A DNA stretch of 64,000 nucleotides, taken from assembly GCA_947650285.1 (NCBI GenBank), contig CANTFL010000376.1, positions 61,110-125,109 of the forward strand. Reading direction: 5' to 3'. This DNA is from Hyaloperonospora brassicae (lineage: Eukaryota; Oomycota; Peronosporomycetes; Peronosporales; Peronosporaceae). The notes under the pieces are model-generated. The model made no database searches. It worked only from the letters and a program-made list of their open reading frames with translations, and had not been told where the DNA came from. The position numbers and the translations under genes were made by a program. Positions 13,000 through 57,760 of the stretch are shown here, one piece after another (positions within the stretch are counted from its first letter, which is position 1; each line of letters opens with the position of its first letter).

Positions 13000-13725
13000 A
13001 GCTGGATTCGCGTTTACTAGTCTCCCTCGCCAGCACTACAGCATTCATCCTTAACGGCACTACAAGAACTTACTCCATCTCGATAACGAGTGGACATATC
13101 CTCAAAGGATTTATTCGAGGCACGGTGTGCAGGCTCTGTCTTATCATCTATTAAGGATTGTCAGAAGCCGAAATCTTTAATCGTGTTCCAAGAGAACGGT
13201 ACATGGTTTGCCAAAATGCCGCCGTGAACCGAGGGTCACGGTCGGATACGAGTTCACAGGGCAGCCGGTGGAGTCGTAATGTCTAGTCTACGAAGCCACG
13301 CGCACAGCCTTGTGCCATGATCGACACGGAGACCGCAGAAAGATGCACCATCTTGCTAAAATGATCGACAAACACAAGAATACCATTATTCTTGTGAGCA
13401 TCTTCGGGAAAACCGAAGACGAAGTTCATTATAACGGACTTCCAGCACTCTTCCGATACCGGCAGAGGCTTTAACGGTGCACGGGATAAAGAACTAAGCT
13501 TCACCAGTTGGAGACCTCGCAAGAGCGAATGTACTTGCGGACAAACTGATACTGGTGGGGCCAGTAAAAGTCACGGCTTACTATGAGGTAAGTCTTCTCC
13601 TTACCACGATGCCCGCCTGACGGCTCATCGTGACATTCGAACATGATGCGTAAATGCAAATCAGCACAATCGGAAACGACGACACGGGGGGTGTCGTCAG
13701 CAACTCTGTGTAATACAGCAGACAA
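13000..13725 (-). pseudogene. Gypsy-1 integrase, degenerate
   Basis: On the minus strand the zinc-binding region comes first (FECHDEPSGGHRGKEKTY, FYWPHQYQFVRKYIRSCEV). The core follows, with the first catalytic Asp region GILVFVDHFSKMVHLSAV (13283-13522) and the second in CELVSDRDPRFTAAFWQTMY (about 13175-13270). A decayed Gln-Thr-Glu stretch then continues toward 13000. Frames change at least three times and stops interrupt the core, so no active integrase is made. The normal C-terminal domain and chromodomain are not seen. Confidence 0.75.
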
Positions 13726-13729
13726 TTGC

Positions 13730-14400
13730 GAGTCGTGTACCGATCCACAGAGGAGAGGTATAGAGCCGGCAAGTTCGACAATAATTTCCGGGATGGGATT
13801 GCAAGATGACCCATCAAATGGAAACGATTCGTGTCTCCTGCGTACGCCTTCCGCACGTCGTCGAGTAAAGGCGACGACAGCACACTGACTGACGGATCCG
13901 CAACAGTGGGCAAGGACTTACTGTTTGCGCATGTTGTCGCCTCGAATTCGGGTCGACGTAATAGCGCATCAGCGACGACGTCAAGTCGTCCTGGTTTATA
14001 CTCCACGTAGACCTTATACTCCGCGGAGAAATACAGCCACCTCGACATTCGTTGCGAGAGGTGTGGACTGTTTACGGCCGTGCGTAGTGACCCATGGTCC
14101 GTATAGACGATGAACGGTTTATCTTTTGTGAGACAGACGCGAAACTTGGACAGTGCGTACTTCGTGGCAACGTGTTATTTGTCATGAACTTGATATTAAC
14201 TTTTAGCTGATAGAAGATGACGCGATTGATAGCAGATGACGCGATCCGCGCCATCTGTAATAAATTGCACCAACGCGCAGCTGATCGCCAAATCGCTGGG
14301 GTCACAGACCACATGAAATGTGTCCTGGTCGAAAAATCGCCAACATGGGCGATTGCATCAAGCTTTACTTAGTACCTTTAAAGAAACGCTGACAGTCAGC
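13730..14400 (-). pseudogene. Gypsy-1 RNase H region, degenerate
   Basis: The minus strand encodes the RNase H end and connection (AEYKVYVEYKPGRLDVVADAL at about 13960-14040, LLDDVRKAYAGD downstream). It aligns with the intact RNase H of Gypsy-3 (FAEYNFSVEYKPGRLNVVADAL). The upstream part to 14400 includes the region corresponding to CDASESAIG and carries stops and shifts. This domain degrades the RNA strand during reverse transcription. This copy is inactive. Confidence 0.7.
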
Positions 14401-15130
14401 GTTCTATGCCCACTTCACATTTTTCTTGAGTAAACAAGAAAGATGAACAGTCATATCGGCACCGTTGGGCGAGTACGTGTGCAAGTACGCCGCTAAGCTA
14501 AGGATCTTACGAAGTCCCTTGTCATCGACTGGCACTGGCCAGTCGGTGATCGCCTTCATCATTTCGGGATCAGGGCGGACGCCGTGTTTGCCGACGCTGC
14601 ACCCAAGAAGTAGTATTTCGCTTGCCGCAAATATTCACTTCTTGAGGTTGGCATACAACTTCTGCTTGCGCATAAGATGAAGAATCTTACGGAAGTGAAG
14701 TCGGTGGACTTAAGCGTCCGTCCTTCCATCCATAGCCCGGCTATGGACGAACACATCGTCGAAGTAACTCGGTGCGACATCCCACACCGGTTTCAACAGA
14801 TTTGTAACACATATGTTGAATGTTGCAGGGGCATTGCTCAGCCCCTGTGGCATCACTAGCCCCTCCCACAACATACCGCTGATGGTTCTCACTACTGTGT
14901 ACAGGATCTCCAGCTCACACATGAGGATCTGGTAGAAGCCATCAATCAGATCCATGGACGAGAAGATGGTCCTCTTCGACATACCATCTATGATTACGTC
15001 CTTCCTCGGTATCGGCGTCCGAGCCGGTACCGTTGCAGCATTCAATTTGTTGAATGCGTGCACTATCCGCCATCCTCCTGTGGTCTATCGCACACAGAAG
15101 GTCGGAGAGCTGTGAGGGAAAGTTGATTCC
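14400..15130 (-). pseudogene. Gypsy-1 reverse transcriptase palm, degenerate
   Basis: The open stretch 14710-15063 holds HAFNKLNAATVPARTPIPRK, MDLIDGFYQILM, MLWEGLVMPQGLSNAPATFN and the catalytic YFDDVF box, in RT order. The catalytic Asp pair is still present. The thumb region continues at lower coordinates in other frames (to about 14400). Joining to the upstream RT part (15148-16176) needs a frame change near 15130, so the enzyme is broken. Confidence 0.8.
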
Positions 15131-15147
15131 CTCACATGACCTGCCGC

Positions 15148-16176
15148 TTAGCGATCGGTAAAGAACTTGTCGATCGCTATCACTTGTTCACGAGGCAGTG
15201 GCCACTGATTCATGACACAGTACTTCGAGCCCGGTTTGAGCTCGATCTCGTGTCGAGTGCCTTTGTCCTTAGGCAACTCGCAAGGCACGGATTCAGGGAA
15301 CACATCTCTAAATTCGATCAAATCCTTATACAAAGGATTTGCCTGAAGTGACTCCCAGGATTGAGATGTGTATCGCTCAATCCGAGTCTTCTCATCGAGG
15401 ACACTTTCGTCCATCGATGATCTGCTGAGCACCCGTTCGTTCTCAGCAAATACTGTGGCCGACCGAATATCGGCCACATACTCATCCTCTGTTACGAGTA
15501 TGCAGATCTGCTTGACTTTGCCACTGCGCAGATCACGCAAGAACCGTTTCGGTTCTAGCGTTGGCAATTGAGTTATCTCCGAAGTTAACTTCGGAGGCAC
15601 AATCAGATCAAGCGTATAAGCGCCTACGCTTGATCCGTCATTAACCAAGACGTTCAACGTCTCGGTTTCTTCCTGGGAACTTGCTTCCACAGGTTGCTCA
15701 GGGCCTGATCCCTCAGCAAGTGACTCTCGAGGAATTCCTTCCTCAAGTACGTGGGGACTTATTCCCTCGACGTCTTCCGACTGTGGCTGTGCAACCACAG
15801 TCAGGCACCGATCCTCTACGGTCGACTCTCCATTCGACCTAGGATTACCGTGTTGCCACTTGGAGGCAACATGTTTCTTACTTCTCAGATGCTGCCCTCT
15901 AGGCATGCATCCATGTCCCGGTCCACTCGACTTATTCGAGAGGTGGACCTTCGGCGCAGCCTGTACTCCTGTACAGCGTCCGGGAGCTTGCTCCACAGTG
16001 TAGGGATCAGCTACACTGTGATCTTGTGCAGTCGTGCTAACGACTGTACCGCAAGTGAGGCCATCGCACTCGCTCGTAGTACACCCACGTGAGTGTGGGC
16101 TTTCCAAGATATTCATCAGATGGCCATCTGAGGAACAAGTGGCAGGTGTCGTAACCGATCGATACTGCCAACTCAC
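15148..16176 (-). pseudogene. Gypsy-1 protease-RT linker and RT N-terminus
   Basis: A long open frame of 342 codons begins with a Ser/Gly-rich linker (residues 1-190) and passes into the conserved pre-RT region with a Leu/Thr-rich segment (LDLIVPPKLTSEITQLPTL). It then enters RT fingers with ELPKDKGTRHEIELKPGSKY and QWPLPREQ. It ends at a stop just before the template-contact HAFNKLN block of the next segment. It matches residues of Gypsy-3 51779-52380 almost colinearly. The length of open frame suggests this part decayed late. Confidence 0.8.
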
Positions 16177-16191
16177 CCTTGGCTCGTATTT

Positions 16192-16599
16192 TCAGAGCCA
16201 AGGCAACCCTAAGATGACGTCGAACTTGTCATCTAGGTCAAGCACGATGAAATCATCATCGTACTGTTTATCTTTCAGCGTGTAGAGGATTCCGAATACA
16301 CATTTCTTCACAGTAATCGATGCGCCTGTCGCAAGGCGCACCGTTATTCTCGTTGGAGGGATCTTCCGCTCCACAAAGCTGATACGTCCAGCCTCTATTG
16401 ACTGGCGTCGAAAAAAGTTGTTTGACTCCCCACAGTCAACTAGGGATCGAAGTGACAAGTCCTTTGTCACTTCCAATGTCAAGGTGAGGAGGGATACTTC
16501 ATCACCAGGTTCAGAGACACACAATGACTGTGTGTCGGGAGCAACCTTCGTCGAGAGATTTGCAAATTCGCTCGATGTTGCCAAATTAGTGAGACGCAT
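16192..16599 (-). pseudogene. Gypsy-1 aspartic protease domain
   Basis: A 135-codon open frame with a retropepsin-like fold signature: the active-site loop is LVDCGESNN (D55-C56-G57-E58) and the C-terminal flap/hydrophobic box is FDVILGLPWL. The usual retroviral-type motif is D-S/T-G-A. Here Cys replaces Ser/Thr and Glu replaces Ala. Gypsy-3 has D-C-G-A, so Cys is shared by both copies and Glu is private to this one. The domain would release Gag and Pol pieces from the polyprotein. Confidence 0.8.
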
Positions 16600-16738
16600 C
16601 GCCCCTACTAAACTAGACCATTTTTTGATGGTCCACTTCGCTGTTGCGGCTTTTCAACAGCATCGGACAATCTTCCTCCAGTTCTTTCAACTGGTTGATA
16701 TTTACTGCGCTCAGCACGACGGATGCCGAGCGGGGGAA

Positions 16739-17740
16739 ACATCATTCGTATGCATAGTGTCCCAGCTTATGACATCGATGGCATCTCAACATTCGCTTGT
16801 CATTCACAGGGCGAGGTTTCTCGCCCTCAACATGACTGAGTTCCATTGGTTCTGGACCTCCGACCGCTAATCGTCTTTGTAAACGATAGGGTGTAAGAGT
16901 AGTGTGAGCCTGTCTCACTCTAAAGTCTTCCTGCTGCGCAGCGTAGATTGCCTCAGAAAGCGTCTTAAGCTCTTTATTAACAGGTGGCCCCTGACAGGAC
17001 CATTTGCAAGACCTTGAATAAATATTGTGATCTTGACAAATTCATTTACAGGGTTCACTACCATGCAACTTTATGGTAGCGTACATGCTGAGTGTAAGCG
17101 TGAACCTTTAGCTTACCCTGTATGATCTCAAGGAATTCAGAGAGAGTCCTGAAATTTGCCCTGGGAGGCTTAATCGGATCAGTGATCAGGGTCTTGAAGA
17201 CGTCCAACGACTCGAAAACGTTCGGGTCGTGTAAGATGAGATTCAGGGCCCAATTCCTGGCGTCCCCTGCCAAGTAAGACTGATCGAATGCGACTTACAT
17301 TTGCTCGTTGTCGATGCGACGGGCCTCGATGGCACCGTTGACCTCGACGAACCATATTAACAGGTAGTCTTCCTCTTCTCCTCGATACTTAGAGATCTCT
17401 AACTAAGAGACTCCTGTCGACGCTCACACGTCGACAATGCGGACTGAGACTGATGCAGTCTCGGTGCTTCAGTCCGCTGAAGCCCTTGTTGTTGCAACAA
17501 GGTCGCCTGCGCTCGCGAATTATTAAGTTCTCGTTGCAAGAGCTTGCTGATGACGGCATGCTGCTGGTCTCTATCCCTTGATAATAGCATGATTTAGATA
17601 GCCTCTTTGCCAACGGTCGAACTCATTCGTTCGATCGCACTCCATTCGGCATCTCCAAATAGGAGTAGCTTTAACGAGCTTGTGAAATCTGTCGCCTTCG
17701 ACTTCGTCCAACATGTCCTTTTTTGGCGACGCGAGTGAGG
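16739..17740 (-). pseudogene. Gypsy-1 Gag, degenerate
   Basis: The minus strand encodes a Ty3/Gypsy Gag (DNWALN-type block AGDARNWALNLI, then FKTLITDPIKPPRANFRTLSEFLEI, open at 17058-17273). At 16739-16783 is a CCHC zinc knuckle, CHRCHKLGHYAYE then Cys, with an extra TGA codon between Glu and the last Cys. The N-terminal coiled part (RELNNSRAQATLLQQQG) is at 17399-17590. Gag coats the element RNA. Stops and shifts show this copy is dead. Confidence 0.75.
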
Positions 17741-17770
17741 TCCTTGGACGGACTACATAGTGCTACCAGG

Positions 17771-18213
17771 TGTAACGGGGTACTGGTGACTACGTACTGG
17801 ACTGCCAGTACGAAGTTTACCTTCCACTGACAACAGTGATAGTCAGTGCCCTGCTTAGTGTTGCACCAACACAGAGGAAGTGAAAAGAGACTAGGGAACA
17901 CGCTAGTCTATGGTAAAGTAAAATTGTTATTTAATATAATTAAGTCCTATCAATCTTATGTCTCTGTTTATCCTGACTTAATTATATCAATCTATCTAAA
18001 CGTATGATGACGTCCACTTACCACCCATTGCGCGCGTCTAGCAGCGATTGGTGGGTTGATATCATCACGATATCAACCAATGAGTGTACGCTTCGGTCAT
18101 CTTCAACAATATCATCATGTTTTGCGATATTGTAGAAACAATATCTAACGTAATATTCTTTATTGTCACTTAATCCTTAGTGACAATATCATGTAGCGGG
18201 CTACCCCGTTACA
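17771..18213 (-). repeat. Gypsy-1 5' LTR
   Basis: Read on the minus strand, the LTR begins TGTAACGGGGTAGCCCG at 18213 and ends CCCCGTTACA at 17771, 443 bases. It aligns with the 389-base LTR of Gypsy-3. The first 22 bases are themselves an inverted repeat (TGTAACGGG / CCCGCTACA). The primer-binding region follows inward (minus strand, 17770 to about 17753), beginning CCTGGTAGCAC. Its TGG fits priming by a tRNA 3' CCA end. The partner 3' LTR was not found. Confidence 0.85.
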
Positions 18214-26294: not shown

Positions 26295-27055
26295 GCAGCG
26301 TCGTAGGTGGGGTCGTTAAACCAAAGGAGGAGCATGAGAAGGTGCTTCTTGAGATGAGTGACCTCCGTGAGGCATTGGGTAAGACCCAGAGTGCGTTTGA
26401 CGCGATGCAAGCCCGTGTTCGGGCGTCGTAGTTGAGCCAAGCCCGGATGGAGGCTCAGCTTGACCTCCTGATACGGATTCAGCAACCCATGGCAAGGCCA
26501 ACATACCCGGCGCAAGCGCCTCCAAGTTGATTTGAAATGGATCCCGAAACGGCTTAAGCAAGCCAACGTAGAACACGGGGTGTGTGCGCAGTTTGTGCGG
26601 AAGGTTAAGCGTATACTCAAGTCCCTTCTTGGCGACTACAGTTAATGGTCCAATGAAGCGCGGGCGCAACTTTGTCTTGAAGAAAGCAGATACTGCATTT
26701 GTAGGAAGGTTTTTAGCATTGAGTAGAACTTGGTCTCCGACCTCATAACGATCGATACAACCTCTGCCTTTAGCATCAGCTTGTTCCTTCTGCTTGTCTT
26801 GGCTATCAGCCAGTGCGTCACGCACATGTCGTAAGACATTCAATCGCGTTGCGAGAAACTCGCTTACCTGATTTGGACAGCAGAAGGGCTGCTATCAGCA
26901 AGCTGATTGGTTAATCCTTCCCCACAAGGCCCTGAACCACGCAGTGGTAGCGTTAACAAAACGCGAGGGTGTGTGAGACCATACACATAAAACGGTGTGT
27001 AGCCGGTCGAGGCATACACGGCGTTATTCAACGCAAACTCAGCGACAGGGAGCAT
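26074..27055 (-). pseudogene. Gypsy-2 integrase C-terminal region and chromodomain
   Basis: Read on the minus strand: 26864-27055 is the end of the integrase core (LPVAEFALNNAVYASTGYTPF). 26316-26843 is the GPY/F-type C-terminal domain (YEVGDQVLLNAKNL, LRPRFIGPLTVVAKKG, YTLNLPHKLRTHPVFYVGLLKPF) followed by a Pro/Ser/His-rich linker. 26074-26265 is a chromodomain (YHYLVKWRGYPESENSWEY). Chromodomains of such elements bind histone marks and steer integration to heterochromatin. The three parts lie in different frames. Confidence 0.85.
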
Positions 27056-27060
27056 CGACT

Positions 27061-27650
27061 TTAACGATTAGGCGTTTCAGCGCAAACACTGCGCAAGATG
27101 CCACCGATGATGCGATTCACTCGCTCGGTTTGACCATTAGTAGGCGGATGACCAATTTCGGACATGTCCAAACGTGTGCCGAGCACCTTGGAGACGGACT
27201 TCCAAAACTTTCTAGTGAAGCGAGGATTTATATCAGAGACAATTTCCAACGGCAAACCGTGTTGTCGAAACACGCGATCGATAAACAGCGTAGCTGTACC
27301 TTCACCATCAATTGTATCTGGCACCGCCGCTAAATGAGCCATCTTGCTAAAACGGTCAACAAAGACCACAATACACGTAGTTCCATGCGAATCATTCGTC
27401 AAACCAAACAGGAATTCCATGCTGATGGACTCGTAATACCCTTTTGTACAGGCAAACTAGCCAGCGACGCGGCCGCGTGAGATGAAGGTTTCACCCGTTG
27501 ACAAGTTTCACACGTACGCACATATGTGCTCACCCATTTGTATATTTTGGTCCACCAATAGCATTGGCTAACTAAGCCATAGGTCTTCTCACAACAGAAC
27601 TGACCACTCAACGCAGTATCATGTGCCTCATAAAGGATCTGACACTTAAC
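27061..27650 (-). pseudogene. Gypsy-2 integrase zinc-binding and catalytic core
   Basis: 27399-27611 holds the zinc-binding domain ending TCETCQRVK; one His of the HHCC set is Gln (SGQF where SGHF is usual). 27061-27420 is the catalytic core with all three acidic residues in place: IVVFVDRFSKMAHL, EIVSDINPRFT and NGQTERVNR. It is still open for 119 codons. A stop and a frame change separate it from neighbours, so no full-length enzyme is made. Confidence 0.85.
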
Positions 27651-27729
27651 CCCTCATAATAAGGGTCAAAGATACGATAAGTATTTTCAACATGCGTGCT
27701 ATAGTACAACAGGCCTTGTTCGATAAACT

Positions 27730-28510
27730 ATCGATGTAGCCTCGCACGTAAACGTGCCGACAAGTCTATGTCCGCGTCCTTAAACTCCTCGCTCCCTAGA
27801 GCACGCAGCAGGGCTACACAATATTCATTTTTGGCATATGCCGAACGAATGAGGACAGTTATCGCCGACAAAAGAGTCGTTTCGTGAGCAAGCTCAAGGT
27901 CCGGCCTGCAATACAGCGCATGAGCCAAAGCATTCCGCTCTCCCGGTATGTAATTCAGCTCGAAGTTATATTTGACAAAGAATTCAAGTCAACGAGCCAA
28001 TCGCTGAGAACGATGTGGCGACTGGATCACAGTGCGCAACGACTTATGATTGGTGTAGATCACAAATTGCTAATAGCCAAGAAGATGAACTCTGAATTTA
28101 ACGAAATCAAACTTCATTTCAAGTATCTGCTTGTCATGTACTGGGTAGTGCTTTTCTGCAGGATTTCATTTTCGGGACTCAAACGCACTGACGTTTTCCC
28201 GTCCGTCGACATCTTTTTGTAACAGATCGATGCCTATGGCAAAGTCAGATGCGTCACAGACGACACAATAATATCGATTAGGATTGGTCAAAGCCAAGAT
28301 TGTCGCATGAAGGAGACTCTCCTTTACTCCTTGAAAAGCACAATGCTCGGTGCTAGTCCAACACCATTTTACATCCTTTTTAAAGGAGATTGGATAATGG
28401 CCGAGCCATATCTGCGTAATACGCACTACACTTGTGTAAGTAATTGGCAATACCAAGCCACTTACGTAAGTCCTTTTGGTTCTTTGGAACCAACCAATCA
28501 ACTATGGCTT
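27730..28510 (-). pseudogene. Gypsy-2 RNase H, degenerate
   Basis: 28166-28501 on the minus strand carries the RT connection and first RNase H motif (YYCVVCDASDFAIGIDLLQKD). The part toward 27730 includes remnants of the KYNFELNY-type block and a stretch rich in Ala/Leu (27728-27928). Stops and frame changes interrupt it. Domain order and spacing match Ty3/Gypsy pol. Confidence 0.7.
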
Positions 28511-28559
28511 TTTTCGTAGCGGGATCCGCTTAAAGGCCTCGCATACCAATAAATAACCC

Positions 28560-29300
28560 TAAAAAGGGAATCTATTTTGCACCAAAGATGCACTTTGACG
28601 CGTTAGCGTACAAATTATTTGTGCGCATGCACTCGAGCACCGCTTGTATTTGGTCAGTGGTATTGTCCACATCTGACCGACCATTCATAGCACGACTATG
28701 GACAAAGATGTCGTCAGAGTGCGTCTGTTCATATCGTCTATGAGGTCTGAACAATTGTGTCACAAGACGATTGAATGTATCCGGGGCATTTGATAACTCT
28801 TGCGGCATAACAAGCCACTCCCAGAGCATACCGCTTGGAGTGCTGACCGCTGTCAGCGGAATGACGCTCTCTCGCATGATCAGCTGGTAATAACGATCGA
28901 CTAAGTCGAGCGCACTGTACATTGTACATTCGACCATATTGTTTTAAAGCACACCCTTATCAGATTTTATGTCTAAGCCGGGATGGTGGCCGCATTAAGC
29001 TTTTGTAAGCATGAACAATGCATTACTACCCATTGGGCTTTTTGACACAGAAGGTCGGTGTGGAATGGGGATATTCGCTCTCACGTAACATGCCTGCCGC
29101 GTGCTTTGCACGAAAGGCGTCGTCAATGACTTCACACTGTTACTTTGGTAAAGGCCACTGCCGTGTTACGCAGTATTTAGTTCCAGGAACTTAATCAATC
29201 TCATGACGAATGCCTCTATCACGAGGTTAGACAGACAGTAGCTCGTGACACACCACGTCTTGAAATTCATTTACCAAATATAGAAAGGATCAAGAGGATA
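28560..29300 (-). pseudogene. Gypsy-2 reverse transcriptase, degenerate
   Basis: The open stretch 28572-28937 gives MYSALDLVDRYYQLIMRES, MLWEWLVMPQELSNAPDTFN and NLYANASKCIFGAK. The catalytic box reads HSDD where the family has YFDD, so the Asp pair is kept but the Tyr is lost. Upstream, to 29300, fragments of the fingers remain in other frames. Inactive by stops as well. Confidence 0.8.
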
Positions 29301-29315
29301 CTTAAGGATCGAGAA

Positions 29316-30190
29316 TCAACTTCGCGCACTTAGTGCCACCCTTGTGTACTCAAGGACAGACTCTTTCACTAACGAGGATGAGTTCAACTCAATATCGGGT
29401 CGGATGACCACTAACTCGGATAACTCTCCTGCCTGTAAGGCTTGGCTAAATTCAACGTCATACATTTCGTCTAGATGAAAGAGAGTAACAAAGGATAGCA
29501 GAGTCTCAAGACTAATATTGCCATCAATCTGGCCAGTCAACCCATTGACAAGTGTATATAGTGTATTATTACTATTATCACTTCGAGACATCTTAGACGT
29601 TGGGCGCTTCAAAAATTTTACCCTACGCTGGGATTGTTTATCACAAAAACCTAACGCCTCCTAGAGGCCGGGACAGTAGGGTCCCCGTGGTTGCTATCTA
29701 CCTTAGCGCGCTCTATACGAGAGCTCATGTCTTGAACGACATCTGGTGAAGTGTTACGTAACTCAAACTCTTCACCCAGAGGATTCACTCGTACCACTTT
29801 ACGTACAGCATTCGGGCCTAGCCCTGAACACTCTGGCTTCTCGCCATCAATGTCATTACCGACATTCAGTGAGGTGCCACCTCGGCCGCCCTCACTCGGT
29901 GAGATTTTACGTGCCACCCATTTCACATCAGAGGAATTATATTCGTGATGACTCGGCCCTAGGCCAACCGTGCCTGAAGCATGCAGTGACACATTATCAC
30001 AACGAGTATCACATACCGAAAAACAACTCCTCTCACATACGGTGAAAGAGATCCGCTCAATACTAATGTCATTGGCATTGGAATTAACTAACTCCGACAT
30101 ACCAATGTCCAGCACATTGACATCTTTAGTCAATGGCTCGCGCCAATAGCGCTTTTGTTGCCTAGCAAAGGTGGGTTCATGACTCTCCAA
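29316..30190 (-). pseudogene. Gypsy-2 protease-RT linker
   Basis: Two open frames, 29651-30190 (179 codons) and 29316-29612 (98 codons), lie between protease and RT. The first is Ser/Asn-rich without a domain. The second has the conserved pre-RT helix region (LETLLSFVTLFHLDEMYDVEF, ALQAGELSELVVIRP). Such linkers are common in Gypsy pol and have no known catalytic role. A frame change separates the two. Confidence 0.65.
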
Positions 30191-30235
30191 AGCTTCGCCG
30201 GGAACATTGCGCGTTGCGCCTAATGTCTTAGACCT

Positions 30236-30718
30236 TCAATTAATCCATGGTTCATGGCGTTCAAGCCAGGCCATGCCTAGGATGAGATCGTGCCTCGAAT
30301 GCAAGTCAACGACAAAACAGCGTTCTGTGCTATCAAAGTCCAAAAACTTCAAGCCCAAGTTCAACGGAACTTTAGGCACAGTCACGCGACTACCCGTCGC
30401 TAACCGAACAGTGATGGAATCACCATCGTGCGCTTTCAGCGCCTCAGCATATTGCTGACTCCCCTCTAGAAAACGGCGTCTAGAATAGTTGCATGACGCC
30501 CCAGAATCGATTAATATCGACCAGTGCTTCTTAAAGACTTTAACTATCGCCTCGGCGAATGACAAGCCAGGCTTGTATTCACGCTCTGTGCTTGCTGACA
30601 CGGAGCTCTGTGGGGCTAAGCCCAGTGTTGCTCTACCTCGTAGAGAAGTGACAGAACTCAGTTCTACCCCAGTAGGGCGCCCCCGCGCCAACTGGGTGTC
30701 GACGTATCCCCGTGCCAT
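30236..30718 (-). pseudogene. Gypsy-2 aspartic protease
   Basis: A 160-codon frame with the canonical retropepsin loop SILIDSGASCNYSRRRF and the C-terminal box HDLILGMAWLERHEPWI. Unlike Gypsy-1 and Gypsy-3 the active site is a normal DSGA. The frame overlaps the Gag frame at 30664-30718, which would fit a Gag-Pol frameshift, although decay could also give this. Confidence 0.85.
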
Positions 30719-31609
30719 ACCAAGTTTTTGGTTGCGGCTGGGGTTTCACCCATAGGAGTCGTTTGTTGCTTACGAAAAGGAAAAGTGGGACGCAAGTGTT
30801 CAGGGCTTCCGCACATATAACAGCGTTTAACTTCCTGTAGTTGCTCTGCCACATGAAGCTCCGCTTCACCTTTATCTTCAGCATGTCTGAGATCCATCGG
30901 TTCTGGTTTACAGTAAGCCGAGGTGCTCGCAGAGGTTGCCCTCGCAAAGCTTGGGTTGTACCCATTCCAACCAATTCTGGCCGACTTGAAGTTGTGCTCA
31001 GCATTTTGAGCGATGCTAACAGCTTCCTCAAAAGTAGAGGGATGGATCCAAAACACGTCGGTCCTGAAAACGTCATTTCGAAGACCTTCCATGAATACAG
31101 TTACATAGACTGTCTCAGGGAGCAGGATAGACCGCACAGCAGCCATCGGAGTTCTCAACTCTGAACATAGTACGTGAACTAATTCTTACCCTGAAGGTTA
31201 GACAAGAAGCATGAGCAACACGATAAGCCTGAGGAGGCGGCGATAAAACTCTCAAAGGTCTAACTTGAGGGATCACATGTGGAAAACGCCAATTCGACCG
31301 ACGTGCCACACGTCAAAGCCCACTCTCTAGCTCTTCCATCGATCTTAAAATGGCCAGCGAGACTCGCTGATGCTCAATTGAGATAAGGCTAGAGCTAATG
31401 GCCATCTTAATCTTACGGATTATAAGGGTGATGTTCTCTCCCTTCTTCCCGGAGTAATGTTTAACGTCCACCAGAAGAGGACGAGTTTTAGCCTCTTCTG
31501 GTGGCATTGCCACGTAGCGTGTTGGCATAGCCGACGCTACTTGGTTTTGAACCTGCCCTAGGAGGGCTATTTTATACTGCATCAAGGTCTCGACTCGCGC
31601 ATTAAGCAC
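30664..31609 (-). pseudogene. Gypsy-2 Gag with altered zinc knuckle
   Basis: 31313-31609 is the Gag N-terminal half (TRPLLVDVKHYSGKKGENIT). 30664-31158 is the rest (PETVYVTVFMEGLRNDVFRT, FEEAVSIAQNAEHNFKSAR) and a zinc knuckle CYMCGSPEHLRPTFPF, whose last Cys has become Phe. Between the two, about 31115-31309, reading is broken. Gag forms the particle that packages the element RNA. Confidence 0.75.
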
Positions 31610-48900: not shown

Positions 48901-49331
48901 ACGTCCGCGGAAGAGCTCGTGGCTGCGCTGACCATGCTAATCAAGCTTCGTGTTCCATCGTTCCGTTTGAGCACAACATCATCGTAGCAGCATCATTGTC
49001 ATACCTTACCCCCGTACTGTGGAATTGAGTGGTGTGGTAATTTGTCAGGGGCAAATAACCGCAAGTTGGGGTGGAAGGCATCGATCATCATAACTTGACG
49101 CTACGATGTACGGCTTCATCCCACGCTGAGCCCCAATGCGTGAAGCTGTCTTTTCCGTCGCGGTCGTTTGATCGCAGCACAAGCCAATCATTTCGCGCGC
49201 ATTACACTGCCGCCCCTGTACGTCCACACCTTGACTTGTCGGCTCATCCAGCGTCGGCAGATGGACATCTTTCCATTCTGTCTTTAACAGTAGTCGCCCG
49301 GCTCATTTTTTTCTCTTCGCCGTACCATTAT

Positions 49332-49720
49332 TGTAACGGGGCAGCCCGTTACATGGAATTGTCACTTTAAGGAAAGTGACAATAAAGAATATGAAGTTGA
49401 ATATTCTTTGAACAATATCACCAAAGGGTGATATTGAAGAGTCGACCAAAGCGTCTGCTCATTGGTTGATATCTTGATGATATCAACCCACCAATTGTCG
49501 CAAGACGCGCGCAATGAGTGGTGACGAGACGTCACCATACATCCAGTTATATTAGTATAGTTAAGCTAAGTCAAACAGAGAGACAGTGGTTAAAGACTTA
49601 ATTATATTAATATAACAGTTCTACTTTTACCTTACCTACGCTTCCTCGCTTGCCACGTGTACGTCAGTCGGGGCACCGAAAACCTTGCGTTAAGTTCACG
49701 CAAGGGTGTGCTCCGTTACA
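49332..49720 (+). repeat. Gypsy-3 5' LTR
   Basis: 389 bases from TGTAACGGGGCAGCCCG to GCTCCGTTACA. Five strong inverted repeats lie inside: 49332-49353, 49358-49383 (11-base arms), 49413-49436 (10), 49464-49488 (10) and 49683-49705 (8). The first one makes the very start of the LTR self-complementary. The Gypsy-1 LTR has inverted repeats at the same places with partly different bases. The bases just outside are ATTAT. Confidence 0.88.
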
Positions 49721-49738
49721 CCTGTTAGCACTTTGTAG
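49721..49738 (+). other. Gypsy-3 primer-binding region
   Basis: CCTGTTAGCACTTTGTAG follows the LTR; the Gypsy-1 copy has CCTGGTAGCACTATGTAG. TGGTAGCAC in the less decayed copy would pair with a tRNA 3' end (CCA plus acceptor stem). Here the second G of TGG has become T. The tRNA is not identified. Confidence 0.6.
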
Positions 49739-49764
49739 TCCTTCCAAGGACCACAACATCCAAC

Positions 49765-50920
49765 ATGTTCATGTTGGATGATGAAGAGACCTTTTACGCC
49801 ACGCGTGAAGGGTTTACCCATTTGAGTGACATCGAATGGGGTGCGGTAGAACGAATGAGTTCTACCGTAGGCGAACTCGTCGCTATTAGCGCCATTTTTG
49901 AGTCTCTCAACAGAGACCAACAACATGCCGCTATAGCCAAGTTCATTCAAAATGAACTTGTCGCTGAAAGGGAGAAAGTAGCCTTGCTTCACTAGCAAGG
50001 CTCTTAACAGGCCGAGCAGTTGAGAGAACTCGGTGCTCAACAGACAGAGCTGTTGAGACAGCAGCAATTCCATGCTGCTGTGGGCGGGACGGCGCATGCG
50101 CGTCGTCCCGAGGTCATGAAGGTTGACATCTCCAAGTACAGTGGAGTCCCGGAGGACTCCCTGTTATTGTGGTTCGTCGAACTCGACAGAGCCTTAAGGG
50201 CTCGTCCCGTCGAAGATGAGCAAATGAAACTCACATTTGCTCAGACCCACTTGGCAGGACGTGCCAAAACTTGGTCTCTAGGGATCGAGAGTAGCGACCC
50301 ACATGTGTTTAGGTCGCTAGATGACTTCAAGTCCCGGCTCAGACAAACGTTTGAGCCGCCACGGGCTGAGTTCAGGGCTCGTTCAGAGCTCCTGAAACTC
50401 AAGCAGGGTAAGCGTGATGTGCACGCTTAATCACAACATATGCGACTCCTCGCGAGTAGTATAACTGCAAACCCGGTTCATGAACACACGTTGATTACGG
50501 TGTTCATGCAAGGGCTCGCAGAGGGGCCGTCAGGAGCCACCTGTTCCGCCTTGAGCTGAATACGCTTGAAGAAGCGATATCAGCCGCGGAACAGGAAGAC
50601 TTTAGCATGAGACAGGCTCATGCTAGCTAAAACACTCATCGTCCACCGAGACGACAAGAGATCGGAGGTCCAGAACCAATGGACCTCTGCTATGTTGAGA
50701 GCGAGAGACCTCGCTCTTCGAACAACAAGCGATTGCAGAGGTGCAATCGCTGTCAAAAGTTAGGGCACTACGCATACGAGTGTAGTGCTCCACGTCCAGT
50801 ACCAAACAGTACTGAGCGAAATTGTCGTCCATTTGCCAGAAAGGTCAATGGGCGTGGGTCCAGCGCTGTTGCGAAACCGCAACAGCGAGACGGACCATCA
50901 AAAAATGGTCGGGGTCAGTA
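49765..50920 (+). pseudogene. Gypsy-3 Gag with CCHC knuckle
   Basis: The frame from 49765 carries a helical N-terminus and, after stops at 49993 and 50005, the Gag core (VDISKYSGVPEDSLLLWFVE, AGRAKTWSLGIES, FKSRLRQTFEPPRAEFRARS). The stop at 50428 replaces the Tyr codon of the conserved HAYTQH block. After a shift near 50540, the frame ending at 50921 has LNTLEEAISAAEQEDFSMRQ and the zinc knuckle CNRCQKLGHYAYEC at about 50740-50782. The Gag core forms the particle and the knuckle binds RNA. Four changes break it. Confidence 0.85.
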
Positions 50921-51334
50921 GGGGCGGAGCGCACTACTGATCCAGCAGCCTCAAGAGAATTTGCAAATCTCTTGACGAAAGTTGCTCCAGATACACAATC
51001 ATTGTGTGTCTCTGCACCTGGTGATGACGTTTCGCTCATCACCTTGAAGTTGGAAGCGACAAATGATTTGTCGCTTCGTGCCCTAGTAGACTGTGGGGCG
51101 TCAAACAACTTTGTTCGTCGCCAGTCACTAGATAGTCGTAGGCTCAAGTTCGTTGAGCGCGACATTCCCCTCACAAGCATGACGGTGCGCCTTGCAACAG
51201 GCGCATCGATAACCGTTGAGAAACGTGTAGTAGGAATCCACTACACGTTAGAGGGCGAACCGTACGATGATGACTTCATCGTACTAGATCTGGATGACGA
51301 ATTTGATGTCATCCTGGGATTACCTTGGCTCTGA
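50822..51334 (+). pseudogene. Gypsy-3 aspartic protease (DCGA active site)
   Basis: 170 codons open. The active-site loop is ALVDCGASNNFVRR with Asp at 51089, and the C-terminal box is FDVILGLPWL at the end. D-C-G-A replaces the usual D-S/T-G-A; Gypsy-1 shares the Cys. The domain itself is unbroken, although its junctions to Gag and RT are not in one frame. This coding segment contains seven strong inverted repeats, including 51053-51077 with 12-base arms. Confidence 0.85.
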
Positions 51335-51338
51335 AGGT

Positions 51339-53122
51339 ACGAGCCAAGGTAGAGCTGGCAGCATCGGTCCGTCAAGATGCCTGCCGCTTGTTCATCAGAT
51401 GGCCATCTGATGAACATCTTGGAGCGTCCACAAGCGTGTGGGTGTTCTGCGAGTGAGTGCGATGGCCTCACTTGCGGTACGGTCGTTAGCACGACTGGCA
51501 AGATGCCTTTGTAGTTGATCACTACACTGTGGAGCAAGCTTCCGGCGATTGTACAGAAATACAGGCGGCGTTGAAGGTCCACCACTAGAATAAGTCGGGT
51601 GGACCGGGACATGGATGCATGACTAGCGGGCAGCATCTTAGAAGTAAGAAACCTATTTCCCCCAAAGGGCAACACGGTCATCCTAGGTCGAATGGAGAGT
51701 CGACCGTAGAGGATCGGTGCCTGACTGTGGTTGCACAGCCACAGTCGGAAGACGTCGAGGGAATAAGTCCCCACGTACTTGAGGAAGGAATTCCTCAAGA
51801 GTCACTTGCTGAAGGATCAGGCCCTCAGCAACCTGTGGAAGCAAGTTCCCAGGAAGAAACCGAAACTGTTGAACGTCTTGGTTAATGACGGATCAAGCGT
51901 AGGCGCTTATACGCTTGATCTGATTGTGCCTCCGAAGTTAACTTCGGAGATAACTCAATTGCCAACGCTAGGACCGAAACAGTTCTTGCGTGATCTGCGC
52001 AGTGGCAAAGTCAAGCAGATCTGCATACTCGTCACGGAGGATGAGTATGTGGCCGATATTCGGTCGGCAACAATATTTGCTAAGAACGAACGGGTTCTCA
52101 GCAGCTTATCGATGGACGAAAGTGTCCTCGATGAGAAGACTCGAATTGAGCGATACGCGTCTCAATCCTGGGAGTCACACCAGGCAAATCCTTTGTATAA
52201 GTATTTGATCGAATTCAAGGACGTTTTTTTTGAATCCTTGCCTTGCGAGTTGCCGAAGCACAAAGGCGCTCGACACGAGATCGAGCTCAGACCGGGCTCG
52301 AAGTACTGTGTCATGAATCAGTGGCCACTGCCTCGTGAAAAAGTACTAGCGATCGACAAGTTCTTTGACGATCGCTTAGCAGCGGGCCATGTGAGGGAAT
52401 CAACATCCCCTCACAGCTCTCCGACCTTCTGTGTGCGAAAGGCCACAGGAGGATGGCGGATAGTGCACGCATTCAACAAGTTGAATGCTGCAACGGTACC
52501 GGCTCAGACGCCGATATCGAGGAAGGACTTGATCATAGCTGGTATGTCTAAGAGTACGATATTCTCGTCCATGGATCTGATGGATGGATTCTATCAGATC
52601 CTCATGCGTGAAAGGGATATCAAGCACACAGCAGTAAGCACCCCCAGCGGCATGCTGTGGGAGTGGCTAGTGATGCCACAGGGGCTGAGTAATGCACCTG
52701 AAATATTCAACAGATGTGTCACAAATCTGTTGAGACCGGTGCGGAATTTCGCACCGAGTTACTTCGACGATGTGTTCGCCCATAGTCGGGCCATGGGCGG
52801 AAAGACGGACGTTGAAGTTCATAGAACTCACGTTCGTCAAGTACTTCAACTTATGCGCAAGCATAAGTTGTACGCAAACCTCAAGATGTGTATATTCGCG
52901 GCTAGCGAAATACCACTTCTTGGGTGCATCGTGGGTAAACACGGCGTACGCCCTGATCCCGGAAAGATCAAAGCGATCACTGACTGGCCAGTGCCAGTCG
53001 ATGCCAAGGGACTAAGAATGATCCTTGGACTAGCGCCGTACTTGCAAAAGTACTCTCGCAACTACGCCGAAATGACGGTACATCTTTCTGGGTTATTCAA
53101 GCAAAATGTCAAGTGGTTATGA
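51339..53122 (+). pseudogene. Gypsy-3 linker and reverse transcriptase, first copy
   Basis: The linker from 51339 contains the 28-base palindrome at 51389-51416. From 51779 a frame of 447 codons is open: pre-RT region (LDLIVPPKLTSEITQLPTL), fingers (ELRPGSKYCVMNQWPLPRE), HAFNKLNAATVP, MDLMDGFYQILM, MLWEWLVMPQGLSNAPEIFN, the catalytic YFDDVF (Y328, codon at 52760) and thumb (KLYANLKMCIFAASEIPLLG). The RT is close to intact. It ends at a TAG/TGA-type stop at 53120-53122, where a one-base shift leads into RNase H. Confidence 0.88.
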
Positions 53123-53817
53123 ACGCTGAGTGCCAGCGTTCCTTTGAAGGTATTAAGCGGAGCTTGGTGCAGTCGCCGATCTTGGCGATTCCAGATCAGG
53201 ACAGACCATTTCATGTGATCTGTGACGCCAGCGAATCAGCTATAGGCTGTGCGTTAATGCAATTAGATGCAGATGGCGCAGAGCGCGTCATCTGTTATCA
53301 GTCGCGTCAGCTGCAAGCACATGAGCGCAATTACCCAGTGCATGACAAGAAATTCCTTGCCGTGAAGTACGCACTGGCTAAGTTTCGCGTCTATTTCTTG
53401 GGAGATAGACCGTTTGTTGTCTACACGGACCATGCGTCACTACGCACGGCCGTAAACAGCCCACACCTCTCGCAAAAGATGGCGAGGTGGATGTCTTTCT
53501 TCGCGGAGTATAACTTCTCCGTGGAATATAAACCAGGACGACTAAACGTCGTCGCTGATGCGCTTTCGCGCCGGCCCGATTTCGAGCCGGTCGCACAATT
53601 CAATAGTGAGGATAAGCCCACTGTTGCGACACTGACAGCCAGTGTTCCGTCGTCAAGCTTACTTGACGACGTACGAAAGGCATACGCAGAAGATAAGGAT
53701 CTCCTGCGATTAATGGATCATCTGTTGAATCCATCCAGTAAATCCATGAGGGATTTACCGGCTTTGTACCGATCCTCATCGGATCGGTATAGTACACGCA
53801 ACGGGTTGCTGTATTAA
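53113..53817 (+). pseudogene. Gypsy-3 RNase H, first copy
   Basis: 234 codons, open in the frame next to RT. The RT connection (CQRSFEGIKRSLVQSPILA) leads to RNase H with the acidic residues in PFHVICDASESAIG, the DKKFLAVKYALAKFR block and PFVVYTDHASLRT, then VEYKPGRLNVVADALSRRP. The domain itself looks complete. After 53817 reading passes a stop and at about 53878 the sequence jumps back to the pre-RT linker. Confidence 0.88.
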
Positions 53818-53878
53818 ACAGCTGTTGCCGGCGACACGCCTCTTGTCGTCGTCCCCGCTCATGATGATTTGCGTTTTG

Positions 53879-55142
53879 CGCTTATACGATTGATCTGATG
53901 GTGCCACCCAAGTTCACTTCTTATGGTATTCGATATCTAACACTTAAAAAAGAACGTTTCTTGTGAAATCTGCGAAGTGGCAAAGTCAATTAGATCTGCA
54001 TACTCGTCACAGAAGATGAGTATGTGACCGACATTCGGTCGGCAATAGTATTTGCTGAGAACGAACGGCTTCTCAGCAGCTCATCGATGGACGAAAGTGT
54101 CCTCGATGAGAAGACTCGGATTGAGCGTTACACGTCTCAATCCTGGGAGTCACTTCAGGCAAATCCTTTGTATAAGGATTTGATCGAATTCAAGGATGTG
54201 TTCCCTGAATCCGTACCTTGCGAGTTGCCTAAGTACAATGGCACTCGACACGAGATCGAGCTCAAACCGGGCTCGAAGTACTGTGTCATGAAGCAGTGGC
54301 CACTGCTTCGTGAACAAGTACTAGCGGTCGACAAGTTCTTTGCCAATCGCTTAGCAGCGGTCCATGTGAGGGAATCAACATCCCCTCACAGCTCTCCGAC
54401 CTTCTGTGTGCGAAAGGCCACAGGAGGGTGGCGGATAGTGCACGCATTCAACAAATTGAATGCTGCAACGGTACCGTCTCAGACGCCGATACCAAGAAAG
54501 GACGTAATCATAGATGGTATGTCAAAGAGTACCATCTTTTCGTCCATGGATCTGATGGACGGATTCCATCAGATCCTCATGCGTGAACGGGACATCCCGT
54601 ACACAGCAGTGAGAATTCCTAGCGGTATTCTGTTGTTGTGGCTAGTAATGCCACAGGGGCTAATAACGCCCCTGCTACATTCAACAGATGTGTAAAAAAG
54701 TCTGCTGAGGCCGGTGCGGAATTTCGCACCGAGTTACTTCGACGATGTGTTAGTCCATATCCGGGCTATGAACGAGAAAAAGGATCGTGGAAGTCTACAT
54801 AACCCGCATTCGTCATGTCCATTGAGCTGTGCGCGAACATAAGTTGTACGCCAACCTCAAGATGTGTACCTTCGCGGATAGCGAAATACCACTTCTTGGG
54901 TGCATCGTGAGTTAACACGGCGTCCGCTCTGATCCTAAATATATCAAGGCGACCACCGACTGGCCCGTGCCAGTAGATGTCAAGGGACTGAGAAAGTTCC
55001 TTGGTCTAGTGGTATACTTGCACAAGTACTCCTGCAACTATGCCGAGACGACTGTCTATCTGTCTTGCTTACATAAGAAAATTGTAAAGCGGTCATGAAA
55101 CGCTGACTGTCAGCGTACCTCATAAATGTCAAGAAATGCTTG
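53879..55142 (+). pseudogene. Second, partial pol copy of Gypsy-3 (pre-RT and RT)
   Basis: From CGCTTATACGATTGATCTGAT (about 53878) the sequence repeats 51903 onward: the pre-RT region, 54024-54695 open with LKPGSKYCVMKQWPLLREQ and HAFNKLNAATVP, then a broken palm with YFDDVL at about 54735 and a thumb with stops. It is more decayed than the first copy. It is cut at 55142 by the solo-LTR-like insert and resumes at 56924. Confidence 0.82.
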
Positions 55143-56923
55143 TGTGGTGAAGTCACTCATCAAATCTTGTACGAGGATCGGTGGCTACACATTTGGGACG
55201 CCACTTACTGGTGGAAAAAGAGGCCATGGGACTTGGCGATCCAATAAGGAAACAGGATCGGCGATCCGATCCAGCTGTCGTCAGAATGATGGGTATGGAA
55301 CGATCTGAGACGGGGTGATCCGGGACAAGACGACAGTTAGGACGATTTCCATGGAGTGATCTGGGACAAGGATCTGAGATCGGGCGATGTGATGTGACTA
55401 TGTGACGAAGGTGTAACATCCTCCAGACCGGTGACACTCTCTACGGATCTCCCAAAGGGAGTACTGATTTAGGTTAATTATGGACCGATCTGGAAGTGGG
55501 GTTGTTTGTGGGGGTCCGTGGGACCGTTGTGAGAATTGTGGATGGTCCCATTGTGCGGATAAACCGTTGAGTATAGTATCGGAGTATGTACAATCAACGG
55601 AAAAGGCATATAGGGCCGGATCGCACTGTGTCGATCCCCAACGATCTCGAATTGGACATCAGATCGGTCATGTTCCCTGCTGGTTATGGATATTTCGATG
55701 ATAAAGCTATTGTATGATGATGTACATGCTTGTTGGAGATCCATGAGTGATGTCCCAAAAGTTCAAACCGAAAAAGCCAGTGGAAGCCGGTTGAATTGAC
55801 GTCGCAAAATGGATTTAGACACGTTCCACATCTTGGATACTATTTTGGACTTTTCAGTATCAAAATTGCGTATTTAGTACCATATTTGGAATTTAGTCTT
55901 TTTTGGTGTCTAGGTGCGATATCGGGAGTATTGGCGCTATCTTCGGAGTACAGATTACGAAATTTCGACACGTGTTCAAGGGGGCGGTCAAGCTTAAAGG
56001 TGATATCGACTTGGACAGTGACCTACGGTTGGGAATAGGCTTAATGATAAGTCGGCTAGTAATTTGGTTGGTTAATAAACAGACTTGAACTCTACTTCTT
56101 CTGCTCACGACGCACGTTCTCCTCCCCTCTTCTCCGGGCAAGATTGATTTGGCTTCCCCGGCGGGTCAAGGCACGCGTGTTACGGGGACACAGAAGACCG
56201 ATCTTGGATTGTTGGCCAAGATCGAGAAGAGCGATCTCGGGAAATCTGGCCCGGATCGATCAAGTACTCACACTCAACTCAACTGCTAGGGTAGCAGCTA
56301 CACAACAAAGGAAATGTAAAGGGATTTTGGACACAAGATCGCGAGACGGCTCAAGTGGTCAGAAGATCTGGACAAGGCGTTCAAGACAAGACCGAGCGAG
56401 ATCGAAGCGGTCTACTGGACGTATCGGCGTGTTTCATTTTGGCGAAATCAAGAACCGATTCGTCCACATTGCGCACTTCCGGCAAGATCGGCCGATCCCG
56501 AGACCAGATCGGACCGATCCCAACGCAAGATCGACGCAAGACTACTATTTGCTGAGTGAATATATCCGCACAGCGAAGACCCCGATCTCGAAGACGAGTC
56601 GAGATCGGTGTGATTCAAGATCGAGATCGCGACATCTCCAAATAGAGATCGCCGCGACTCAAGATCAGGATCGCAGAACCCCGTTCGTGGTGTGAAGAAT
56701 TCCGCACCGGAAGCGAACGCTCAACCCCAAACCCTCAGCGAGATCGACATCTCCCAAGGCCATTACGAAGAGCTCGAGCCAGCCCAACCGACGGGTACAA
56801 AAGGTGAGCACAAGGTTATACAGCAAGGCACGGATCGGAGTACCCCCTCCGTGAGTCGGCAAGTCTGGGCAAGTGGAAGATCGACACTCACTAAATTAAT
56901 TTTCTGAGGTCGACTCCACCACA
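55143..56923. mobile_element. Solo-LTR-like element, copy B, with CTTG target duplication
   Basis: 1781 bases. The ends are TGTGGTGAAGTC (55143) and GACTCCACCACA (56923), terminal inverted repeats of about 12 bases with one mismatch and TG...CA tips. CTTG occurs on both sides (55139-55142 and 56924-56927). Removing the element and one CTTG rejoins the Gypsy pol sequence. It is colinear with 32015-33816. No long reading frame is present. Size, ends and 4-base duplication fit a solo LTR of an absent long-LTR retrotransposon. A non-autonomous element is the alternative. Confidence 0.85.
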
Positions 56924-57760
56924 CTTGATGCAATCGCACAAATGTGTGGAATGCAGATCAGGATAGACCATTCCATGTGGTCTACGACGCCAGCTATTTT
57001 TCGATCGGCTGTGGGTTGATGCTAATTATCACAGACGGCTCAGAGTGCGTCATCCAGTCCATGACAAGGAACGCCTTGCCATGAAGAACGCAATGGCCAA
57101 GTTTCGCGTCTATATCTTATGAGATAGACCGTTCATCGTCTAAACCGATTTATGCGTCCCTACGCACGGCCGTAAACAATCCACACATTTTGCAAAGTGT
57201 GACGACGTGGCTGTATTTATTCGCGGAGTACAACTTCTCCGTCGAGAAAATCTCAGGAAAACTATATTTCCTCCCTAATGCGCTTTCACGCCGTCCCAAT
57301 TTTGTGCCGGGCGCGCAACTTACGGTGAGGAAAACCCTAGTGTTGAGACACTTACATTAAGTGTCATGTCGTCAACAGTATTTGACGACGTGCGAAAGGC
57401 CTATGCAGAAATTATGGATCTTCTGCGATCGATGAAAAATATTCGGCGCTTTCATTTCGTTTAAAATTTAAATATTTGTCGGACTTAAACCGTTCCTCAT
57501 CGGATCGGTACACAACTCGCAACGGATTGATGTACTATACTGCCGTTGCCGACGACACGCCTCGTATCGTCGTCCGACGCCAAAATGATTGGCTCTTGCG
57601 CATCATGATGAGTGTCACGGTGCCTAAACAGGCGGGAACCGTAGTATGATAACGACTTACCTTACGGTAAGTCGTGACTTTTACTGGTCCCGCGAGTATC
57701 AGTTTGAGCGCAAGCACATTCGTGCTTGTAAAGATTTGTCAACGGAGAGAGCCTAGTACT
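56924..57760 (+). pseudogene. Gypsy-3 second copy: RNase H to integrase zinc domain
   Basis: The sequence resumes with GCAGATCAGGATAGACCATT, matching 53190-53210 of the first copy. Remnants of CDASESAIG, YTDHASLRT and ADALSRRP follow at the DNA level, then the integrase zinc-binding part at 57600-57760 (SVTVPKQAGT-like, FYWSREYQFERKHIRAC). Stops and deletions are frequent throughout. Confidence 0.75.

Follow-up and report, generated by a model that had tools for sequence, protein, structure and literature searches.

Perfect short hairpins saturate a Gypsy retrotransposon lineage of Hyaloperonospora brassicae and may reflect selection on folding

The window analysed here, a stretch of 64,000 nucleotides from Hyaloperonospora brassicae, carries on its forward strand a Gypsy element first described at 49332..53790. 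A 5' LTR of 389 bp with TGTAAC...GTTACA ends (49332..49720, bounds inferred by eye) is followed on the same strand by the gag domain Retrotrans_gag (PF03732, 50236..50424, within the open reading frame 50020-50430), the retroviral aspartyl protease domain RVP_2 (PF08284, 51071..51331, within 50822-51334), the reverse transcriptase RVT_1 (PF00078, 52433..52930, within 51779-53122) and an RNase H domain (PF17919/PF17917, 53122..53511, within 53113-53817). This copy ends after RNase H and retains the 5' LTR alone; it is old and truncated, and belongs to a large family, here termed A. Joined directly to its truncated end is a second partial pol copy (53878..55120, forward strand), 85% identical to it. 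We additionally identified, on the reverse strand, a second, older copy of the family (13652..18212, with its LTR part at 17915-18212), sharing about 80% nucleotide identity with the first over 3.8 kb, and a pol fragment of a related family, C (27893..29268), matching L072 at 83% at the amino acid level.

The Pfam domains bear out the Gypsy-type LTR element identity proposed in the first-pass annotation. The open frame of another copy, L018, contains RVP_2 (86-188), RVT_1 (540-705), RNase H (769-899), Integrase_H2C2 (1017-1074) and rve (1093-1186) domains, in the order of protease, reverse transcriptase (RT), RNase H and integrase found in Ty3/Gypsy LTR retrotransposons, the gag component being represented by Retrotrans_gag in the frame 50020-50430 of the window copy. 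The genome contains this integrated element in at least hundreds of copies. The stem pattern of the LTR hairpin at 49464-49488, allowing at most two mismatches, occurs at 3058 places in the genome, versus 4 for a reversed control, and 11 pairs among the 50 places listed lie about 7.3-7.6 kb apart. Its closest named proteins are from oomycetes, Peronospora effusa (93% identical) and P. matthiolae (87%), with Globisporangium and Phytophthora proteins at about 65% identity. Oomycete Ty3/Gypsy elements share Gag, protease, RT, RNase H and integrase with the hairpin-rich element; we found no description of hairpin saturation in them in the open-licence full-text literature, which is limited evidence, and searches of viral and genome contigs returned no cross-species DNA relatives.

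All 20 hairpins listed in the first-pass annotation are present at their coordinates with the arms given, except that at 49758-49779 and 51322-51350 the positions stood and the arms proved to be one pair longer than claimed. Among the forward-strand examples are an LTR hairpin with 11-bp arms and a loop of 4 (49358..49383), hairpins with 11-bp (49757..49780) and 12-bp arms (51053..51077), a perfect palindrome with 14-bp arms (51389..51416) and, inside the RT domain, a hairpin with 10-bp arms (52847..52870). Counting non-overlapping perfect hairpins with loops of up to 12, we identified in 49333-53890 56 with arms of at least 7, 42 with arms of at least 8 and 16 with arms of at least 10, versus respective means of 3.0, 0.74 and 0.08 in 100 dinucleotide shuffles; the last value is close to the chance estimate of about 0.05 given earlier for arms of 10 bases. 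The LTR (49333-49721) contains 8 perfect hairpins versus 0.2 expected. In codon-preserving shuffles (300 for each window frame, arms of at least 7) hairpins were far fewer than the 13 observed in 51779-53119 (mean 1.2, maximum 5), the 10 in 50822-51331 (0.8, 4), the 7 in 50020-50427 (0.9, 4) and the 4 in 53113-53814 (0.6, 3). The other family A copies in the window are similarly dense, with 11 hairpins versus 0.7 expected in 53878-55100, and 45 versus 3.6 in 13500-18900. The family C fragment shows no excess of arms of at least 7, and the region around it (26800-31200) contains 47 five-bp stems versus 15.1 expected. No excess was found in the window at 19-31 kb (11 hairpins versus 8.5 expected), and no Rfam model matched 49000-55200 at gathering score.

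At 36 other family loci, occupying 33 places, we identified 51-72 hairpins each in 3.6-4.1 kb, versus 1.9-3.5 expected; better-preserved members carry more stems, not fewer. Neither outcome named in the first-pass annotation as refuting, a similar count in codon shuffles or intact members lacking the stems, was therefore obtained. Family A reaches 71 hairpins in 4.1 kb, and its 1254-codon open frame contains 66 versus 3.6 in codon shuffles. Family B1 has 55 hairpins in 6 kb, 40 of them in its open frame (codon-shuffle mean 4.0, maximum 12), and family C has 25 with arms of at least 5 (mean 7.8, maximum 13). Dinucleotide and codon-preserving shuffles therefore reject chance or codon usage as the source of the hairpins in A, B1 and C, and the claim that they span LTR and coding DNA alike, accounted for by neither, was upheld. 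Stem lengths peak at 8-10 bp in A, at 8 bp in B1 and at 4-5 bp in C, where no longer stems exceed expectation; the loop-length mode in A and B1 is 3-5 nt. Hairpin centres are common within a family (13 of 22 and 4 of 10; none of 1000 rotations reached this in either case), and overlap only at the level of chance in rotations between families (A versus B1, B2 and C). Spacing has a coefficient of variation of 0.44-0.66, about that of random non-overlapping placement by our own estimate. In family A, stems take up nearly as large a share of the nucleotides in codons that are at least 90% conserved (27.7%) as in variable codons (31.6%). No common motif was seen among the loops listed; GNRA tetraloops of sense and antisense type account for 5 and 3 of 17 in B1, and for 1 and 2 of 17 in A (L018). 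The first-pass annotation had not foreseen that the window copy is old and truncated, that neither strand is preferred, or that two related families show the signal too, with hairpins placed elsewhere and stems of different length.

We found little of this signal elsewhere in the genome. Thirty other RT loci contain 96 hairpins in total, 0-6 each versus 1.8-2.9 expected each, the small excess lying in arms of 7; arms of at least 10 occur only in L064, which bears a stretch of the family LTR. Pfam domains, examined in four of these loci, identify L039, L048 and L062 as endonuclease-RT (LINE-like) and L066 as RT only. Two Gypsy-type RT-RNase H loci, L071 and L073, show no hairpin excess. A genome-wide or host effect is thus rejected within the sampled loci, given the little or no excess in host DNA, in LINE-like loci and in the Gypsy-type loci L071 and L073.

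Folding energies exceeded sequence-order controls, as in GORS viruses, by 48-51% in three copies of family A, by 16% in B1 and by 13-14% in C; B2 and B3 have a hairpin excess, yet a sense folding excess of just 2%. Eight of nine non-family controls fell between -1.9 and 2.2%. The ninth, L070, has a folding excess of 17.8% without a hairpin excess, and folding energy alone is therefore not a hallmark of these elements. The antisense strand folds as strongly as the sense strand, with an equal or larger excess in most loci.

In copies derived from replicating elements, stems vary less than loops. Third-codon-position variants present in at least 3 of 41 copies have frequencies of 0.066 in stems, 0.182 in loops and 0.117 elsewhere, a stem depletion that none of 1253 rotations matched; stems also have slightly fewer singletons, a level reached by 49 of 1253 rotations. 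In 13 copies we identified 28 double changes in stems versus 12.2 expected, 17 of them Watson-Crick, also more than expected (expected share about 0.42, our estimate from the mutation spectrum), although in L010 none of 5 was. Between the older window copy and L018, stems are less diverged than loops, with 10 Watson-Crick double changes. These third-position tallies, and those below of variants common to at least two copies, leave out L003, L004 and L008 (the same places as L023, L014 and L026) and L009 (the window's second copy); the third-position tally and its rotations also leave out win, win2, L082, L083, L084 and L087.

The hairpins, spaced a few dozen bases apart along the stretches examined, suggest that folding itself is under selection, being compatible with coding and of a length typical of each family. 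We consider it probable that a Gypsy lineage has here a folding architecture that extends over its whole genome and is maintained by selection. The folding role raised in the first-pass annotation gains from the scarcity of shared variants in stems relative to loops, from the compensatory changes and from the extreme folding energies, and loses from the lack of any sense-strand preference in wobble counts or in the folding of the two strands. We regard it as very improbable that the structure of the sense RNA is the sole target of selection, as it is in the GORS of positive-strand RNA viruses. Sense-strand loops in family A are A-rich (A 182, T 128, p 0.0026), and the stem/loop variation and absence of positional conservation resemble coronavirus GORS as described in PMC7642675. 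Plain sense-RNA selection would, however, predict more G.U than A.C, and the counts tell against it: 26 each among stem variants common to at least two copies, 29 each among family A hairpins with one wobble, 35 G.U and 34 A.C among outer mismatches over six sequences, and, among hairpins of at least 8 pairs in B2 and C, 0 and 0 with G.U versus 6 and 5 with A.C. Together with the equal folding of both strands, this argues against plain sense-RNA selection.

The strand symmetry and the lack of wobble bias would also be expected if bases paired in a single-stranded intermediate simply mutated less, hairpins gathering as a steady state without selection. Shared variants follow the order loop, other, stem and those in stems are not shifted to low frequency (median count 7, versus 5 for others), and lower mutability of paired bases is therefore an alternative, although an unlikely one: shared loop variants lack a deaminase-like spectrum (C>T 5, G>A 5, T>C 6 and A>G 6 of 31), the effect is absent from other Gypsy-type loci and from LINE-like loci although these share the same cells, and family-dependent stem lengths are not predicted. 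We view as doubtful, and disfavour as a sole cause, the reverse-transcription by-product suggested in the first-pass annotation, in which one arm serves as the template for the other during snap-back template switching, so that hairpins are built and perfected and pile up without benefit. Perfect Watson-Crick arms without G.U preference, equal on both strands, random-like spacing, confinement to RT-using elements and some double changes that restore pairs all agree with it. Rewriting should, however, harm the protein sequence of one arm, and the 5' and 3' arms show the same degree of conservation in A (0.564 versus 0.587, p 0.55, 59 hairpins) and B1 (0.470 versus 0.451, p 0.87, 35 hairpins). 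Unbiased correction also predicts many shared Watson-Crick double variants, whereas 4 were common to at least two copies versus 87 single-change non-pairing variants, with shared variants depleted in stems; LINE-like loci of this genome and its two further Gypsy-type loci have little or no excess, and family-specific stem lengths, each with an upper limit, are unexpected from open-ended copying. Points that weigh against selection are the lack of wobble preference, the slight deficit of stem singletons, the L010 doubles and the weak sense folding of B2 and B3.

Under selected folding, the target of selection would be the element in a single-stranded state, be it genomic RNA, minus-strand cDNA or both, with each hairpin adding a little, so that any position may serve while local pairing with the right stem length persists. 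As the likeliest role, we tentatively propose that local folding lets the element's own Gag/nucleocapsid recognise its RNA or cDNA and compact it inside the particle, a role that would account for stem lengths differing by family; next in likelihood comes protection of the two strands against base pairing with small or antisense RNAs. More speculatively still, each family might follow a hairpin code along its entire genome, with perfect Watson-Crick stems of a set length (about 5, 8 or 8-10 bp) placed wherever codons allow and putatively read by its own Gag/nucleocapsid or acting on both cDNA strands. A family would then be identified for packaging by the length of its stems and not by their sequence or position.

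Single-stranded RNA viruses with dispersed RNA packaging signals likewise carry many small stem-loops of flexible position, read by the capsid protein; no common loop motif was seen in the element. Quasipalindrome correction by template switching yields perfect inverted repeats with short loops, but its signature of one-arm rewriting is at odds with the equal protein conservation of the arms. As described in PMC7642675 and PMC3695492, GORS viruses resemble the element in their many consecutive stem-loops across coding sequence, in folding energies above shuffles and in stem-loop positions poorly conserved between relatives; its variant pattern can also be likened to that of SARS-CoV-2, where single mutations are equal in paired and unpaired sites and repeated ones enriched in unpaired sites. 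The element differs from RNA viruses of persistently infected animals in being an endogenous, integrated oomycete LTR retrotransposon, with perfect Watson-Crick stems of family-specific length and no sense-strand preference. Folding excesses quoted in PMC7642675 are 15% for SARS-CoV-2, 7.5-10.7% for HCV and at most 23.4% for a vertebrate RNA virus, versus 48-51% here, by slightly different window and shuffle methods.

If selection keeps the stems, this would be the strongest genome-wide folding signal in coding sequence known to us, about twice the record quoted for vertebrate RNA viruses (PMC7642675). Since the genome offers related families with hairpins of unequal length and strength, along with controls that lack the folding, packaging, escape from silencing and mutational origins should be separable in this lineage. 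Annotation is affected as well, as pairing would constrain the codon usage of such elements and the clocks and phylogenies built on them.

The Gypsy element in the window, a truncated copy of family A starting at 49332, comprises LTR, gag, protease, RT and RNase H, and its reading is split over several frames. It ends at approximately 53877, in a direct junction with a second partial pol copy (53878-55120), an older fragment that is 85% identical to the first and matches it from 51903 onward. Further old fragments lie downstream of the joined pol copy (56924-57601), and a further family copy occupies 13652-18212 (minus strand). Very old fragments of the same lineage at 5240-8000 (minus strand; approximately 69% nucleotide identity over 209 bases) have a faint hairpin excess. 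As read from the sequence, the LTR start (49332-49354) is a short inverted repeat (TGTAACGGG...CCCGTTACA), and the terminal sequence is thus itself a hairpin.

Hairpins, here perfect inverted repeats with arms of at least 7 bases and loops of up to 12 unless another arm length is given, were listed for this element in the first-pass annotation, and all 20 checked were as described (20/20). The window copy contained 56, versus 3.0 in a dinucleotide shuffle, and the excess persisted under codon-preserving shuffling, with 4-13 observed versus 0.6-1.2 in four open stretches. Copies are numerous in the assembly (100.6 Mb, 898 contigs), with 1858 first-look candidates, of which the 40 scored were 93-94% identical, the window itself excepted. 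The LTR hairpin pattern was found at 3058 places genome-wide (at most 2 mismatches), versus 4 for a reversed control; among the places listed, some matches form pairs approximately 7.3-7.6 kb apart, which suggests full-length elements near 8 kb. Family A loci outside the window (36, at 33 distinct places) carried 51-72 hairpins per 3.6-4.1 kb (expected 1.9-3.5), and 12 additional 1.5-kb pieces carried 17-24 (expected approximately 1). In one copy, L018, perfect hairpins cover 1615 of 4102 bases, and the open frame of 1254 codons holds 66, versus 3.6 in codon shuffles. The lower number in the window copies is due to decay.

Related families of the same genome differ in stem length. B1 (L069, L089 and L090; 63% amino acid identity to A) had 55 hairpins in 6 kb, with 40 in the open frame versus 4.0 in codon shuffles (maximum 12; n=100), and B2/B3 (L088, L086) had 7 and 6 per 1.5 kb versus approximately 1 expected. 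In C (L072 and L085; 59% to A), arms of at least 7 bases occurred only once in each, the chance level, and arms of at least 5 numbered 25 in each, versus 7.8 in codon shuffles (maximum 13-14). With loops of 3-8 bases, stems of 8/9/10 bp numbered 14/11/10 in A (at most 0.1 expected), and stems of 7/8/9 bp 13/21/9 in B1 (1.4/0.3/0.1 expected), with one of 10 bp; 5-bp counts in both families may contain pieces of longer broken stems. In C, stems of 4/5/6 bp numbered 39/23/3 (20.3/5.3/1.3 expected), with none of at least 7 bp. The decayed C fragment in the window (27893-29268, minus strand), whose relatives' hairpins have 4-5 bp stems only, repeated this pattern, counted over 26800-31200 (110/47/11 versus 59/15/3.8; two of 7 bp). 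Hairpin centres coincided inside families (A versus L082, 13/22; B1 versus B2, 4/10; 0/1000 rotations each), and between A, B and C only at chance level.

Folding energy excess, calculated in 300-base windows against dinucleotide shuffles, was 48-51% (sense) and 49-52% (antisense) in A, 50.5% and 43.6% in the window LTR and gag, 14-16% and 14-20% in B1, 13-16% and 15-21% in C (L072/L085), and 2-7% and 8-10% in B2/B3. Antisense folded more strongly than sense in L088 and L086 (10.3 and 8.2% versus 2.3 and 2.0%). Controls gave -1.9 to 2.2% in sense, except L070 (1-1501), an RT locus with a 2225-amino-acid open frame, which reached 17.8% without an excess of perfect hairpins. Values in PMC7642675, from 350-base windows, include 15% for SARS-CoV-2, 7.5-10.7% for HCV and a record for that paper of 23.4%.

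Stems vary less than loops. Across 41 A copies, third-position variants in at least 3 copies stood at 0.066 in stems, 0.117 at other positions and 0.182 in loops (p 0.0054 and 0.00051); singletons gave 0.141, 0.181 and 0.200. The stem set was pooled from all copies, a choice that should not bias the comparison towards low stem variation. Rotation of the stem mask gave values as low in 0/1253 cases for shared variants and 49/1253 for singletons. Third-position divergence from the second window copy was 0.133, 0.241 and 0.306, respectively; both sides had changed in 14 pairs (10 Watson-Crick), where 5.7 such doubles would be expected. In a set of 13 copies, double changes numbered 28 (17 Watson-Crick) versus 12.2 expected, but L010 had 5, none Watson-Crick (0/5). 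Shared stem variants in A copies were no lower in frequency than elsewhere, and stems may therefore simply mutate less. Our preferred explanation is that selection acts on how a single-stranded intermediate of the element folds locally, because the hairpins follow the lineage of the element, the other elements sampled from this genome lack them, and each family has its own stem length. Mutational freezing and template switching are given lower odds.

Protein-level conservation was equal for 5' and 3' arms, and slightly lower in stems than in the remainder (A, 0.566 versus 0.607; B1, 0.451 versus 0.510), which would follow if pairing took precedence over the protein sequence at some residues. 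At one B1 hairpin (alignment 237-257), the relatives keep all seven amino acids but use different synonymous codons and lack the hairpin. The nearest named proteins, among the best 120 of 1213 matches (E≤1e-20), were from Peronospora effusa (93%) and P. matthiolae (87%), which makes an oomycete of the Peronosporaceae the probable host.

On balance, neither strand is preferred. Shared single changes in stems gave 26 G.U, 26 A.C and 35 other combinations, and one-wobble hairpins of at least 8 pairs gave G.U and A.C counts of 29 and 29 in A, 16 and 17 in B1, 8 and 3 in the window LTR-gag, 0 and 6 in B2 (L088), and 0 and 5 in C; sense-strand loops were rich in A (A 182, T 128; p 0.0026). Equal treatment of G.U and A.C implies a role for both strands or for the cDNA, or else a requirement for strict Watson-Crick geometry alone. 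The favoured selection on folding would probably act via the element's own particle proteins.
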